Assembly: GCF_019711355.1 (NCBI RefSeq)
Contig: NZ_CP081297.1
Location: 682,001 to 746,000 of the forward strand
DNA from: Qipengyuania psychrotolerans
Lineage (GTDB): Bacteria; Pseudomonadota; Alphaproteobacteria; Sphingomonadales; Sphingomonadaceae
Reading direction: 5' to 3'
Length of the DNA stretch: 64,000 nt
In this document: piece after piece, positions 58,961 to 64,000 of the stretch
How the letters are laid out: every line of letters begins with the position of its first letter
Numbering within the stretch: position 1 is the first letter of the stretch
The notes under the pieces: model-generated
What the model saw: only the letters and a program-made list of their open reading frames with translations
Told to the model about the DNA's origin: nothing
The model's database searches: none
Position numbers and translations under genes: made by a program

Positions 58961-61147
58961 ATGGGCGTTTTCGATTCCATATTCCGCCGCCGCAAGGCCG
59001 AAGCACCGGTGCAATCGCATCGCGGGTTTTATTCGCTGCACGACGGCTTCGACGATGACGCGTGGGATGCACGCCTCGACGATCTCGACAGCGCAATGGC
59101 GCGCGAGGAAAAAAGCCGCCTGCGGTTCTGGCAGCTCAGCTATTGGCGTGACCGCCGCAAGCGCTGGTGGTTTGCCCACATTATTGCAGGCCTGCTCGCC
59201 CTGTTTATCGTGCTTGTCGGCTGGCTCGCGGTTACCGCTCCGCTTTCGAAATCGCTGGAGCCCATTGCACCGCCGCAGATAACCCTGCTTGCCGCCGACG
59301 GGACGCCCATTGCACGCAACGGTGCGATAACCGACGAGCCGGTCGACGTGTCACGATTGCCCCCTCACGTGGTTGGGGCGTTTCTCGCGATCGAGGATCG
59401 CCGGTTCTACAGTCATTGGGGCGTGGACCCGCGGGGCATTGCCCGCGCTGCCTTCACCGGTACCGGCGGCGGCAGCACGATCACGCAGCAACTCGCCAAA
59501 TTCACATTTCTCACTCCGGAGCGCACGCTGACCCGCAAGGCGCGCGAGGCCATGATCGCGTTCTGGCTCGAAAGCTGGCTGACCAAGGACGAGATACTCG
59601 AACGATATCTCTCCAATGCTTATTTCGGAGACAATGTTTACGGACTGCGCGCCGCCAGCCTGCATTATTTCTATCGCCAACCGGAAAACCTGAGGCCGAA
59701 CCAGGCCGCCATGCTCGCCGGATTGCTCCAGGCCCCCAGCGCCTATGCTCCTACGAGGCATTACGAGCGCGCCGAAAAGCGGATGCGGCTGGTCATAACG
59801 TCAATGGTGGCAGCCGGGTACATTACCGAGGCCGAAGCGCGCGCGATGCGGCCGCCGACGCTTGATGTCCGAATGAAGAGCGATCTTCCGACCGGCACCT
59901 ATTTCGCGGACTGGGCCCTGCCTCAGGCGCGGGGGCTGTCCGATAGCGGTTATGCCCGGCAGACGCTGACCACGACGCTCGACAGCCGCCTTCAGAATAT
60001 CGCGCGCAACGTCACCAATCGCGCGCCTCTGGGCAAAGCTCAGATCGCCTTGGTGGCGATGCGCACCAATGGCGAAGTGGTCGCCATGATCGGCGGGAAG
60101 GATTACCAGAAATCACCCTTCAACCGCACCACGCAGGCGCGGCGACAACCGGGATCGACCATCAAGACCTTCGTCTACCTGGCGGCCCTGCGTGATGGAT
60201 GGAGCCCGGACGACACCATCGAGAATACCGAAATTACTGAAGGCAGTTATCGTCCGCGTAATTCCGACGGCCGCTACTCACCCACGATCACGCTGCGCGA
60301 TGCGCTGGCGCGGTCCAGCAATGTGGCGACCCTCCGCCTGTTCAATGAAGTTGGTTCGCAGAAAGTCATCGATACCGCCCGGGATTTCGGAATTTCGGCG
60401 GAGTTCGTGAAGGGCGATCCGAGCATCGCGCTGGGATCGACCAGCATGACCTTGCTGGAACTGACTGCGGCATATGCAGGGATTGCGGCCAACTCATTCC
60501 CGGTCGAACCCCACGCCATCGCGCGCGAAGAACAGGGCTGGTTCGAGCGTCTGTGGAACGGCGGCGACAGCCTGAGCAGGTCCACGCATTCCGAAATTGA
60601 AGACATGCTCCGCGGTGTCATCAACAACGGAACCGGCCGCCGCGCGATGCTTTCAGGACCCAATTTCGGCAAGACCGGGACCAGCCAGGACAACCGCGAT
60701 GCATTGTTCGTCGGCTACGCAGGAGACCTGGTGGTCGGTGTGTGGATCGGCAATGATGACAATTCACCGCTCGATGGCATTTCCGGAGGCGGCCTGCCGG
60801 CTCGGATCTGGCGCGATTTCATGGTGCAGGCTCTTGGTGTCAACGCGGCGCCTGACCGGTCAGGCCCGCGCTCCAATGAAGATCCCGGCGGGCCGGTCGA
60901 GCCGCTCGACGTGCCCGATCTTGAAGACATTCCACTGGGTGATGGCAATTCGCGCCTTCGCATACGCGACGGCGAGGCGGTCTTCTCCACCGAGATCGAG
61001 GGCATCCCGGTCGATATCAGGGTCGGCGATGACGGAGTGTCGATTTCCGAGGAAGCGATCGAGGAAGCGCGCCGCCGCGCTGAAGAGCGGCGCTATGAAG
61101 CGGTGCGCGAGGAAATGGAACGACAGGGCCAGCTCGAACCGAACTAG
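58961..61147 (+). CDS. Class A penicillin-binding protein (transglycosylase/transpeptidase)
   Basis: 728 residues. A cytoplasmic N-terminus (1-65) is followed by a TM segment (about 68-92). The GT51 domain has the catalytic Glu145 in EDRRFYSHWGVDP and GGGSTITQQLAKF. The transpeptidase shows STIK (399-402), SSN (452-454) and KTGT (571-574), all intact. A C-terminal stretch (about 640-728) is rich in Glu and Arg. It is probably PBP1A/PbpC-like and builds peptidoglycan in the periplasm. The stop overlaps a convergent thioesterase by 4 bp. Confidence 0.94.
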   Translation: MGVFDSIFRRRKAEAPVQSHRGFYSLHDGFDDDAWDARLDDLDSAMAREEKSRLRFWQLSYWRDRRKRWWFAHIIAGLLALFIVLVGWLAVTAPLSKSLEPIAPPQITLLAADGTPIARNGAITDEPVDVSRLPPHVVGAFLAIEDRRFYSHWGVDPRGIARAAFTGTGGGSTITQQLAKFTFLTPERTLTRKAREAMIAFWLESWLTKDEILERYLSNAYFGDNVYGLRAASLHYFYRQPENLRPNQAAMLAGLLQAPSAYAPTRHYERAEKRMRLVITSMVAAGYITEAEARAMRPPTLDVRMKSDLPTGTYFADWALPQARGLSDSGYARQTLTTTLDSRLQNIARNVTNRAPLGKAQIALVAMRTNGEVVAMIGGKDYQKSPFNRTTQARRQPGSTIKTFVYLAALRDGWSPDDTIENTEITEGSYRPRNSDGRYSPTITLRDALARSSNVATLRLFNEVGSQKVIDTARDFGISAEFVKGDPSIALGSTSMTLLELTAAYAGIAANSFPVEPHAIAREEQGWFERLWNGGDSLSRSTHSEIEDMLRGVINNGTGRRAMLSGPNFGKTGTSQDNRDALFVGYAGDLVVGVWIGNDDNSPLDGISGGGLPARIWRDFMVQALGVNAAPDRSGPRSNEDPGGPVEPLDVPDLEDIPLGDGNSRLRIRDGEAVFSTEIEGIPVDIRVGDDGVSISEEAIEEARRRAEERRYEAVREEMERQGQLEPN

Positions 61148-61560
61148 CTCGCTGGAGGTTCTGCCACGAGCACATTCATCACGGCTGTCGCGATGGGCCG
61201 GTCGGGATCATCCTGCCACGCTTCTACGGTTATGTTGGCACTGCGCCGGCCAAGTTTGGTCACGCGGCCACGGGCGTAGGTCTCGCGGCTCTTGCCAGCT
61301 GCCAGATACTGCACTGTGATATTGATCGGCTTGAGGATTGCTTGGCGCTGTTTCAGCGCGAGCATGGAGCGCAAAACGGCATAGCCTGCTGTCTCCAGCA
61401 GGCCTCCGGTGGCGCCGCCGTGGTAATGTTCTGGACGGCCTTCGACAGCCTCGATGAAGTCCACGCGGATGATCGGGGTGTCGCCGTCCCATTCCGACAG
61501 CTTGATGCCGAGCGAGCGTGCGTAAGGCGTCAGGGCGATATCATCGCGTTTATCAGGCAC
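61144..61560 (-). CDS. PaaI-family hotdog thioesterase (downstream copy)
   Basis: 138 residues. EHYHGGATGGLLETAGYAVL carries the hotdog helix with the usual Gly/Glu residues, followed by TVQYLAAGKSRETYARGRV. It probably hydrolyses small or aromatic acyl-CoAs. Its start overlaps the stop of a second PaaI-like gene by 8 bp, and the two are presumably translated together. Confidence 0.85.
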   Translation of the reverse strand: MPDKRDDIALTPYARSLGIKLSEWDGDTPIIRVDFIEAVEGRPEHYHGGATGGLLETAGYAVLRSMLALKQRQAILKPINITVQYLAAGKSRETYARGRVTKLGRRSANITVEAWQDDPDRPIATAVMNVLVAEPPAS

Positions 61561-62011
61561 CGGGCACCTCGCGCGGGTCCGCGCCGCCGATCTTCATGAA
61601 GACACCCTGGATATGTGCGACAGGATCGTTCGCATCGCCGTCATGAGCCAATCCGCGTACGAAGGCCGCGCTTCGCGTGATGCGGTAGCATTGGGAGCGG
61701 CCGAACACGGCTGCACCGTCGCGGGCAGGGCGTACGTAATCGACCCTCAGATCCAGCGTCGCGATGGCCTGGAATTTATCCATCGCTTTCCAGATCGCGA
61801 GGCCGCTGGCCATGTCCATGAGGCTCAGGATCGGGCCCGATGCCAGCACGTGCTGCCCGTCTTCACCAAGCAAGTCCGTACGCCACGGTAGCTCGAGCTC
61901 AACCCAATCTTCACCGTGGTCTGAGTATTTTAGACCAAGCCAGCCCGAATGGCCTCTGCTGGTCAAGAATGGCGTGGCCGCCTTGGGGTCGAAATTTGCT
62001 GTGTCGGACAT
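61553..62011 (-). CDS. PaaI-family hotdog thioesterase (upstream copy)
   Basis: 152 residues. It has the hotdog segments GPILSLMDMASGLAIW and TLDLRVDYVRPARDGAAVFGRSQCYRI. It is distinct in sequence from the following thioesterase, so this is a paralogous pair rather than a recent duplicate; a heteromeric enzyme is possible. It diverges from the small ORF at 62151 across 139 bp. Confidence 0.85.
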   Translation of the reverse strand: MSDTANFDPKAATPFLTSRGHSGWLGLKYSDHGEDWVELELPWRTDLLGEDGQHVLASGPILSLMDMASGLAIWKAMDKFQAIATLDLRVDYVRPARDGAAVFGRSQCYRITRSAAFVRGLAHDGDANDPVAHIQGVFMKIGGADPREVPGA

Positions 62012-62150
62012 GGATCGGGGCGGCGATAGCGCCGGGTTCCCGATTATTACAATGTTTTAATTCGATCCCGCTCGATCAAACCGTCAGCAGCCCCCGGCGC
62101 GTTGCAGGGCACGGCAATAATGTCGCTCCCGGCGCGTCAGGGAACGCACA

Positions 62151-62312
62151 ATGGAACTACCCGATATCGATATCACTAGCTTGCCTGCTCTGGACACCGT
62201 GACCGGTCTGTTCGGGAGTCTTTCGGCAGCTGGCGGCCCGACCGTGGACGACCGCGTCGTTGTAATCATGGTCTATGTCTACGAGATGATTCCGCCAGAA
62301 GCGCTGGTCTGA
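62151..62312 (+). CDS. 53-residue small protein of unknown function
   Basis: Open frame starting MELPDIDITSLPALDTVTG, with AGGGA 8-10 bases before the ATG. The N-terminal 30 residues are acidic and leader-like, then comes GGP, and the C-terminal part (residues 31-53) is hydrophobic: VVVIMVYVYEMIPPEALV. It has no transmembrane-length charge-free helix beyond about 12 residues. It lies 15 bp before a same-strand gene, so it appears to head an operon with 62328 and 63278. I do not recognise a family. The gene call rests on spacing, ribosome site and codon use. Confidence 0.6.
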   Translation: MELPDIDITSLPALDTVTGLFGSLSAAGGPTVDDRVVVIMVYVYEMIPPEALV

Positions 62313-62327
62313 AGGCGGCACGGCGCG

Positions 62328-63290
62328 ATGAGGATCGATCCGCAATTGCGCGCGCTGCGGGGCAACACTGCCTCGCAGCGCAACGCGCAGCAGGCCCTGG
62401 AAGATGCGCGTGACGAGTGGCGCGACGTCTCGGCATCAAAAGAAATCGAGGAGCTGGAGCGCTATGGGGCAGGCATGCCGCTGGATCAGTGTCCCGCTCT
62501 GACGGCACTTTTCGAGGGAAGCAGAGCGAAGAGTATGGCCGAGACCCTTGTCGCTGGCACTCTTGAGGCATTGCGCGGCAATCCCTTGGGACAGGTACCC
62601 TTTCGGCACCAGCACAGCGAAGGCCTCAGTGTCCTCCAGCTTGCCCATTCCGGCCGCGCCGCGCTCACCCTGCTGCTCTATTCCGATACCGGTCACGAGG
62701 CCCCGGCATCTGCCTGTTTCTCGGGCGGTGACCGGATCGAGGCGGTACTCGCCGGTGCTGCCGACGTTCGTTTCCTCGAACTCCTCGAGGATCGCGGGAC
62801 GAGCGCTGCAATCGACTGCACGGCGCGCCGCGTCGTCGATGGCGAGGTCATGCGGTTCAGCGGATTTGCACAAACCAAATCGATCGAACGTGTGCATGGG
62901 CGCATGGTGGTCCTGCGTCTCGCAAGAAGCGACGCAGCCCCGTGCGATGCGCGTGAATTTGCGCTGGATGATGGCCGCCTGCTGCACCGTGCCAGCGGCT
63001 CACGCGCGGAAAGCCGCCAAGAGATGATGCTGGCCCTACTTGGCCGGATGGGGCGCAGCGATGCTGCACCGCTTATTGCCGAGATGACCTGCGAGGGCAG
63101 CGATCATATTCGCTGGCAGGCAATGCGCGAATGCCTTGCTCTGGACACGGTGACGGGGTTTGCCGCGCTGGGCGATATGGCCCGCAATGCCGGCGATCCC
63201 CTAGCTGCTACGGCCGGCGCACTGCACGCCCAGCTTATAGAAACTTACCCGCAGCTGGCCCGCTTGGAGACGCAAAAATGCCCCGCTTGA
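62328..63290 (+). CDS. Unknown protein with HEAT-like repeats at the C-terminus
   Basis: 320 residues starting MRIDPQLRALRGN, with GAAGGCGG upstream. The middle (about 80-220) alternates beta-like strands, including FRHQHSEGLSVLQLAHSG, which recalls a cupin-type sheet though no metal triad is clear. The C-terminal 90 residues (about 225-315) look like two to three HEAT-type helical repeats (LLGRMGRSDAAPLIAEM, IRWQAMRECLAL, FAALGDMARNAGDPLAATA). Such repeats bind partner proteins. Its end overlaps the next start by 13 bp, so both are co-translated. Function unknown. Confidence 0.75.
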   Translation: MRIDPQLRALRGNTASQRNAQQALEDARDEWRDVSASKEIEELERYGAGMPLDQCPALTALFEGSRAKSMAETLVAGTLEALRGNPLGQVPFRHQHSEGLSVLQLAHSGRAALTLLLYSDTGHEAPASACFSGGDRIEAVLAGAADVRFLELLEDRGTSAAIDCTARRVVDGEVMRFSGFAQTKSIERVHGRMVVLRLARSDAAPCDAREFALDDGRLLHRASGSRAESRQEMMLALLGRMGRSDAAPLIAEMTCEGSDHIRWQAMRECLALDTVTGFAALGDMARNAGDPLAATAGALHAQLIETYPQLARLETQKCPA

Positions 63291-64000
63291 TCAACAGTGA
63301 CGAGAGCGCAGAGCATGGTATCGACGAGTGCCTCGGCCAGTTGCAGGGCGGCTTCGATCCCGCTGATGAGGGGAGCCTTTCCAATGCTGCCTCGGCCCTG
63401 AAGAAGCTCGCCAACAACAGGCGCTTTCTAGGCGATATCCTGATCGCTCAGCTCACCGACCGACACCGCGAGGGCGGACTTGAAAGCGGATATGGACCGC
63501 AATCAATCGTCCTCTCGCCCAATCGCGGCGGCAGTTTCCTGCGCGCAAACATCTGGCCTAGCGAGGACGAGGCCTGTTTCCAGGCGAGCGGCGCGAAGAC
63601 CTTTGTTTACGGCGTCCCGCACGATCACAATTTCAGCTTCCTGACTGCGGGTTACTTCGGTCCGGGCTATGGTAGCGACTATTTCGAATATTATTACGAG
63701 GAGGTCGCCGGATACCGCGGGGAAGTGGCGGATTTGCGGTTCGTGGAACGAAGCGCGCTGAGCGAAGGCAAGCTAATGCTCTACCGCGCGCACCGCGATG
63801 TGCATTCGCAATTGCCGCCGGAAAGCCTGTCTGTCTCGCTCAACATCATGCGCATCGATCCAGCGGAAAGCTGGTGCGACCAATATGGATTCGATCTCGA
63901 CAGCAGTGCCGTCACCGGTGTCCTGAACCCTACCTCGACAGAGTGTTTCATGCGCTGCGCCGTAGGCTTGGGCATCGATGCCGCGCTCGATTTCGCAGAA
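63278..64000 (+). CDS. Unknown cupin / cysteine-dioxygenase-like protein (partial, cut by window end)
   Basis: 241 residues are readable from the ATG at 63278 (GGAG upstream), running past the window edge. PHDHNFSFLT holds His115 and His117, and [10 protein letters not shown] holds His172 and His176; LSVSLNIM follows. An HxH pair plus a third His about 55 residues later, in a sheet, is the three-His iron layout of cysteine-dioxygenase-like cupins (HxH, then His about 52 residues on). The match is by pattern only. The stretch GSDYFEYYYEE is unusually rich in Tyr and acidic residues. It overlaps the HEAT-like gene by 13 bp. Confidence 0.7.
   Translation, partial: MPRLINSDESAEHGIDECLGQLQGGFDPADEGSLSNAASALKKLANNRRFLGDILIAQLTDRHREGGLESGYGPQSIVLSPNRGGSFLRANIWPSEDEACFQASGAKTFVYGVPHDHNFSFLTAGYFGPGYGSDYFEYYYEEVAGYRGEVADLRFVERSALSEGKLMLYRAHRDVHSQLPPESLSVSLNIMRIDPAESWCDQYGFDLDSSAVTGVLNPTSTECFMRCAVGLGIDAALDFAE

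Follow-up and report, generated by a model that had tools for sequence, protein, structure and literature searches.

In the literature that we searched, the nearest precedent for the enzymatic role proposed below is PbsQ, a JmjC-related cupin-like hydroxylase that acts on a RiPP precursor in a biphenomycin-like pathway (PMC12257519). In that pathway, PbsQ is described as following an MNIO and an arginase, and the residue that it hydroxylates is ornithine (PMC12257519). Here we compare this and two other kinds of system, the thiol dioxygenases and the double-glycine-leader peptides with C39 ABC transporters, to a trio of genes (P1, P2 and P3) at the end of a 64,000-nucleotide stretch of the genome of Qipengyuania psychrotolerans (the window; G000:C1:682001-746000).

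When comparing the trio to RiPP gene clusters, in particular that of PbsQ, we find a likeness in the short precursor ORF that stands beside a cupin-fold enzyme and in the exporter-type genes near some relatives of the trio. Unlike PbsQ, P3 has a predicted thiol-dioxygenase fold and is paired with a predicted pseudo-cupin, and the cassette contains no MNIO, radical-SAM enzyme or protease, nor did we see any other classical RiPP enzyme in it. With the thiol dioxygenases (cysteine, 3-mercaptopropionate, mercaptosuccinate, cysteamine and plant cysteine dioxygenases), P3 shares the predicted fold and the HxH...H pattern. However, where these enzymes have an S-x-H-x-Y motif, P3 has Asn and Met, Leu, Val or Ile, and there is no significant sequence match; furthermore, P3 has additional C-terminal HEAT-like helices and the obligate neighbours P1 and P2. 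The likeness to the double-glycine-leader systems is found in one distant relative (L090), in which a C39 exporter lies by the trio and P1 reads DLTLDEADVVSAGA, which we take to resemble a GG-type leader. These systems differ from the trio in that many trio members have no GG-type motif and the window genome has no C39 peptidase. No description of such a trio was found in the literature covered (open-licence PMC papers and few subscription journals).

All three genes lie on the + strand. P1 (window positions 62151-62312) encodes 53 aa and is the candidate precursor peptide. After a spacing of 15 bp follows P2 (62328-63290), a protein of 320 aa with helices, a cupin-like barrel and C-terminal HEAT-like helices, which we regard as the predicted pseudo-cupin partner. 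P2 overlaps by 13 bp with P3 (63278-64000), a predicted thiol-dioxygenase-fold cupin with three His and C-terminal HEAT-like helices; the gene is cut by the window end, and the complete P3 in the genome (G000:C1:745278-746165) encodes 295 aa. The original prediction of a 53-residue ORF, a 15-bp spacing and an overlapping third gene was thus confirmed in its coordinates. None of the three proteins is named by Pfam (searched with the window P3 at 240 aa and with 30 full-length P3s), NCBIfam (run on the window P3 as cut by the window end and then on full-length relatives), PADLOC or PHROGs. The matches that were obtained remained below threshold: HEAT_2, as well as the TcmP, MMB_0454 and NblB models for a pair from Alteromonas.

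The genes flanking the trio were named by reading their sequences. On the 5' side of P1, two PaaI/hotdog-like thioesterase genes (61144-61560 and 61553-62011) are divergent from the trio. On the 3' side of P3, a 46-aa ORF and a RuvX-like gene are convergent. The 46-aa ORF (L004:2670-2810, - strand) lies just past the window end between P3 and the RuvX-like gene and has a hydrophobic end; ORFs resembling it stand after RuvX in several trio-bearing relatives, and a weakly matching one occurs in L238, from a genome that lacks the trio. A PaaI-like thioesterase homologue is present in 21 of 47 compared loci, so that the trio often lies at a thioesterase site, by shared synteny or by a functional link. 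Between the divergent thioesterase gene and P1 there is a conserved non-coding block, TTACA...TTTTAATTCGAT (62047-62066, + strand), in which TTACA and TTTTAATTCGAT are identical in eight of eight close relatives. Its core, searched as GAATTAAA on the opposite strand, occurs upstream of the thioesterase gene in one of 17 trio-less genomes. The block is possibly a control element of the trio; a scan for promoter and terminator consensus sequences found nothing.

The small ORF had been predicted to be a protein, and this is borne out by its relatives. We observed 20 homologues of 46-53 aa, and 17 of 53 columns are invariant in an alignment of 19 sequences. In all 64 comparisons of named loci to the window gene, pN is lower than pS (median pN/pS 0.49, with synonymous sites near saturation in distant pairs). 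Among these, the first eleven loci (L129-L139) have dN values of 0.12-0.31 against the window gene, compared to dS values of 0.74-2.82. These substitution patterns indicate that P1 is a real protein under purifying selection and no chance ORF. Its N-terminal half is acidic and contains IDxxxLPxLDTxTGLFGS, and it ends in the hydrophobic C-terminal stretch DDRVVVIMVYVYE. The latter is well conserved among Erythrobacter-like bacteria, unlike a hypervariable core. The window P1 contains no Cys; thus, P1 in the window lineage has no thiol that could be oxidized. Elsewhere in the window genome there is one weak P1 match (G000:C1:416473, E 0.165). A second P1-like match in another genome (G063), lying in a 645-aa frame, was rejected as chance once its sequence had been read. 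No P1 relative was confirmed in a pattern scan of viral contigs.

The third protein had been likened to cysteine-dioxygenase cupins because of its HxH...H pattern, and the predicted fold agrees. In the model of a 95%-identical homologue (pLDDT 91.2), residues about 8-218 form a thiol-dioxygenase fold that is followed by the C-terminal HEAT-like helices. All of the 50 structural matches listed are thiol dioxygenases or CDO-like proteins (3eqe is titled only YubC). The three histidines H115, H117 and H176 are invariant in 30/30 diverse and 77/77 other aligned P3s, from which we infer that they may bind a metal. The position of the S-x-H-x-Y motif is occupied by S187-L-N189-I-M191. Asn189 is present in 30/30 and 77/77 P3s and residue 191 is Met, Leu, Val or Ile, whereas the two CDO_I proteins that we read have His and Tyr at these positions; this register comes from those two proteins and a non-significant hhalign alignment.

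By sequence comparison, P3 does not reach significance against a CDO_I protein. Neither Pfam (30 full-length P3s; no CDO_I or other dioxygenase family) nor NCBIfam (four relatives; no dioxygenase family) gave a match, and the P3 profile has no credible match among PDB sequences (best E 0.043, TFIIF). Therewith, the match to an unrelated family lacking the conserved histidines, which would have spoken against the original prediction, did not appear in Pfam, NCBIfam or the PDB profiles. P3 homologues are numerous in the protein database searched (3,471), and no P3 match was found in phage records. Among the matches listed (two lists of 120), all homologues that carry an NCBI name are called "transposase". 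We found no support for this label in our analyses; it looks like a propagated misannotation, and the fold and conserved residues favour a cupin metalloprotein.

For the second protein, the prediction of HEAT-like repeats holds in part. The AlphaFold model of P2 (pLDDT 94.7) has HEAT-like helices at the C-terminal end, but these follow a cupin barrel, which the prediction did not include, and structural comparison gives cupin matches. Against Pfam HEAT_2, the window P2 scores 14.8 bits (cut-off 27.7, E 0.037) and thus stays below threshold, whereas the Alteromonas P2 exceeds the cut-off with 36.7 bits. P2 lacks the conserved barrel His/Glu metal site by which a cupin enzyme would be recognized: no barrel His column reaches 30% of 39 diverse P2s, and H94 (48 of 57) is the sole His column above 70% in the closer P2s. 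The pair R262-W263 is found in 39/39 diverse P2s. We therefore model P2 as a pseudo-cupin with no conserved metal ligands. A comparison of P2 to P3 gave an E value of 5.4e-4 with a probability of 30%, so that paralogy of the two proteins is a suggestion from their sequences. The P2 profile has no match at E<=1 among PDB sequences, and the window P2 has none on plasmids.

We then asked how the trio is distributed. P3 is present in 23 of 61 sampled genomes, comprising 23/37 in the genus and 0/24 from other families of the order. Judging by named relatives, this genus would be Qipengyuania and its family Sphingomonadaceae. In a family sample it was found in 104/298 genomes and 45/96 genera; in a class sample, in 5/385 genomes (four of the five from the window's family); and in a phylum sample, in 15/398 genomes (13 of the 15 from that family). 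Among the genomes of species, 408 stretches fit a pattern, 393 of them relatives, and 80 were kept as named loci. A script detected the order P1-P2-P3 in 64 of these 80 loci, an arrangement that recurs across Sphingomonadaceae; conservation of the order had been named beforehand as a check of the prediction, and missing conservation of the small ORF beside the two larger genes, which would have spoken against it, was not what we found. The remaining 16 loci, as judged by the script alone, have no P3 frame (2), no P2 (9) or no P1 (5). Where P2 is present (69 loci), the overlap of P2 and P3 is 13 bp in 41 cases and 1 bp in 16.

P1 occurs in 40/60 genus genomes. Across the 37 genomes covered by both the P1 and the P3 searches, 23 have both genes, 13 have neither and one (G002) has P1 only. 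Of the 20 P1-less genomes of the genus, we inspected the corresponding site in 17 (G013, G028 and G062 were left out as fragmented). Both thioesterase genes are present in 17/17, and in 14/17 a RuvX match adjoins them (at 50-115 bp in 12 and at 249-270 bp in 2). No match to P1, P2 or P3 at E<=1e-3 was found within about 3.4 kb around each of these empty sites. We thus conclude that the cassette was gained or lost whole at one site. There are also signs of decay. In G002 (L254) the P1 frame is open, P2 is broken and P3 is almost gone. P3 is split in G006 (L024/L029) and G021 (L027/L028) and truncated in G033 (L026), with P1 matches persisting, and G063 (L255) has a P2 that is split across frames. 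Taken together, the broken genes beside P1 matches suggest that the trio is dispensable and decays often, with the qualification that some of the broken genes may be assembly errors.

Several genomes contain second copies. In three genomes, two separate trios encode clearly different peptides: L091/L092 (G110), L096/L097 (G169) and L108/L109 (G376). On plasmids, the window-lineage P3 has one match, in Alteromonas stellipolaris, and a more distant P3 as query adds a second, remote match in Vibrio (25.8% identity, E 3e-5). In the latter, the plasmid of Vibrio sp. ED002 (L258:8075-9631), a remote P2/P3-like pair with a 1-bp overlap is flanked by Tn3-type transposition genes and restriction-modification genes. 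It has no clear P1 upstream, and an ORF of 59 aa overlaps P3 at its end.

To describe distant members, we used a diverse set of 40 P3 genes in 39 stretches, two of which (L120 and L126) are from the genus. A P2-like ORF ends within 60 bp of the P3 start in 38/40 cases, most commonly with an overlap of 13 bp (12 cases) or 1 bp (8 cases); the two exceptions are L103, which a contig end interrupts, and L120, where the P2 of G063 is split. At E<=0.01, the P1 profile of the close set matches upstream of 25/40 P3 genes and at no other place in the loci; at E<=0.05 there are 30 matches inside and 3 outside. Eight of the 40 P3 genes have no match even at E 1. Seven of these have a small ORF of similar layout, picked by eye, and the eighth is L103. 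With a profile of 29 eye-picked peptides, the best match in the Alteromonas record in six frames is a 41-aa ORF directly before P2 (E 3e-4); the expected ORFs of L090 and L091 are found at E 0.005-0.007 and a false frame of L228 at 0.04.

Among these 29 diverse peptides, likeness is greater in the N-terminal half (0.35) than in the C-terminal half (0.17). A loosely defined pattern, [hyd]x[hyd]xx[hyd]Px[hyd], is present in the first 25 residues of 29/29 versus 1.5 expected from shuffles, a contrast that is inflated by the selection by eye. In 29/29 the C-terminal half contains the most hydrophobic stretch, which beats 95% of shuffles in 8/29. Cys occurs in 11/29. Several distant peptides have EVGG or EVAG ahead of the hydrophobic end (L108 is of an EVGGxxC type); this motif is missing from many members.

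Some distant loci also contain exporter-type genes. Adjoining the trio of L090 is an ABC exporter of 898 aa that includes a peptidase-C39 domain (E 3.8e-30). On the Alteromonas plasmid, two small ORFs, P2 and P3 are surrounded by genes of the Yip1, HlyD, ABC and MacB types, a second ABC ATPase and an ABC-2 permease. L101/L230 has two tandem trios, the second with two small ORFs, and an ABC ATPase and an ABC exporter follow 1-6 kb on. Two different small ORFs before a single P2-P3 pair were observed at L101:3856-8597 and L231:10438-10811, which may mean two-peptide products. Furthermore, reading by eye shows an HlyD/RND-type pair upstream in L228, and ABC genes lie at least 3 kb from the trio in L106 and L109. 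A linked exporter was found in 2 of the 39 diverse stretches (L090 and L101), and there is none beside the window trio. In the genus, peptidase C39 occurs in 12/60 genomes, of which five have P1 (5 of the 40 P1-bearing genomes). Separately, C39 processing of P1 in the window genome is excluded as far as the Pfam model sees, as a search with it found no peptidase C39 there.

We propose, with a probability of about one half, that the three genes constitute a self-contained RiPP-like cassette whose small product P1 is bound by P2 and P3 and oxidatively modified by P3. As the precursor peptide, P1 would be recognized through its conserved N-terminal half (IDxxxLPxLDTxxG) and modified in its hydrophobic C-terminal half. 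The cupin-HEAT protein P2, with no conserved metal site, would form a complex with P3, the three-His cupin-HEAT protein, and would contribute to binding the N-terminal half of P1; P3 would use iron and oxygen to oxidize the C-terminal half. We infer the iron in P3, the formation of the complex, the half of P1 that is recognized and P1 as the substrate. P1 is a short conserved gene adjoining candidate modifying enzymes, as a RiPP precursor gene is expected to be. The RiPP-like reading is further supported by the linkage of the three genes, the fold and histidines of P3, the contrast between the halves of P1, the exporter context and the PbsQ precedent. The lack of an exporter beside the window trio and of C39 in the window genome, the linked exporters in no more than 2 of 39 diverse stretches, the absence of Cys from P1, the genus-conserved C-terminus of P1, the 8/40 profile-negative loci, the choice of the diverse peptides by eye, the 8/29 share of hydrophobic stretches that beat the shuffles and the lack of a classical RiPP enzyme count against it. 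The original prediction of a peptide-modification system is thus partly supported: P1 is a real small protein, the gene order is conserved and the predicted cupin fold of P3 is CDO-like, but P2 is predicted to be more than a HEAT scaffold, P3 lacks the His and Tyr of the motif and P1 is free of Cys. It is the best reading of the locus, helped by the exporter-type genes near three distant relatives, which go with secreted peptides and fit better with a peptide product.

Alternatively, P2 and P3 could be an oxygen- or metabolite-sensing metalloprotein pair, with P1 as a small-protein partner or effector that is bound or freed depending on the iron state and undergoes no covalent change. The conservation of most of the P1 sequence within the genus and the missing exporter and C39 peptidase of the window genome are in line with this explanation, as are the human and plant fold relatives ADO and PCO, which are oxygen sensors. 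However, we found no DNA-binding or signalling domain in P1, P2 or P3, and the exporters near three distant relatives as well as the paired peptides are better explained by a peptide product. We thus consider a sensor-effector system rather unlikely.

PQQ and mycofactocin are peptide-derived cofactors. By analogy, P1 might be modified and cut to a small molecule that is used intracellularly; for such a product an exporter is not needed, which would suit the stand-alone cassette of the window lineage. The genus-level P1s also have conserved Tyr42, Tyr44 and Glu45. Yet Tyr and Glu are not kept in distant P1s, the cassette includes neither a radical-SAM enzyme nor a protease, and it is often absent or decayed, which together make a cofactor distinctly improbable.

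The uniform structural matches of P3 raise the question of whether it acts on a small thiol as thiol dioxygenases ordinarily do, with P1 and P2 as accessory subunits or mere neighbours. This is hard to reconcile with the invariant Asn189 and the Met, Leu, Val or Ile at 191 that replace the His and Tyr of CDO_I (in an alignment that is not significant), with the missing Pfam CDO_I match and with the strict linkage of P3 to P1 and P2, and we regard it as very improbable. Least probable of all is a toxin-antitoxin or addiction module in which P1 is a hydrophobic toxin neutralized by P2 and P3: the short peptide with its hydrophobic end, the patchy distribution and the second copies would fit, but the P1 frame of G002 remains open despite the decay of P2 and P3 and P1 matches stand beside a split or truncated P3 (G006, G021 and G033), which speaks against P1 as a toxin, the whole cassette is cleanly absent from some genomes, P3 strictly retains its metal-site residues although mere binding would not need them, and PADLOC-DB returned no family for the three proteins.

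Returning to the RiPP-like cassette, a peptide with a modifying enzyme is a known kind of system; the enzyme types of P2 and P3 are not described in that role in the literature searched. A more far-reaching version, which we put forward tentatively, is that an iron enzyme of the thiol-dioxygenase fold has given up the Ser-His-Tyr motif and thiol substrates and acts instead on a hydrophobic peptide tail, in which it oxidizes aliphatic or aromatic side chains. It would be guided by a cupin-HEAT paralogue that is catalytically dead and recognizes the peptide by its N-terminal half. Such a pairing would be a new class of ribosomal peptide system, possibly overlooked because its enzyme, whose gene is present in about one-third of the sampled genomes of the family, is named a transposase. 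If true, the trio would add to peptide maturation, for which neither is reported in the literature searched, a type of non-heme iron enzyme and a pseudo-enzyme partner.
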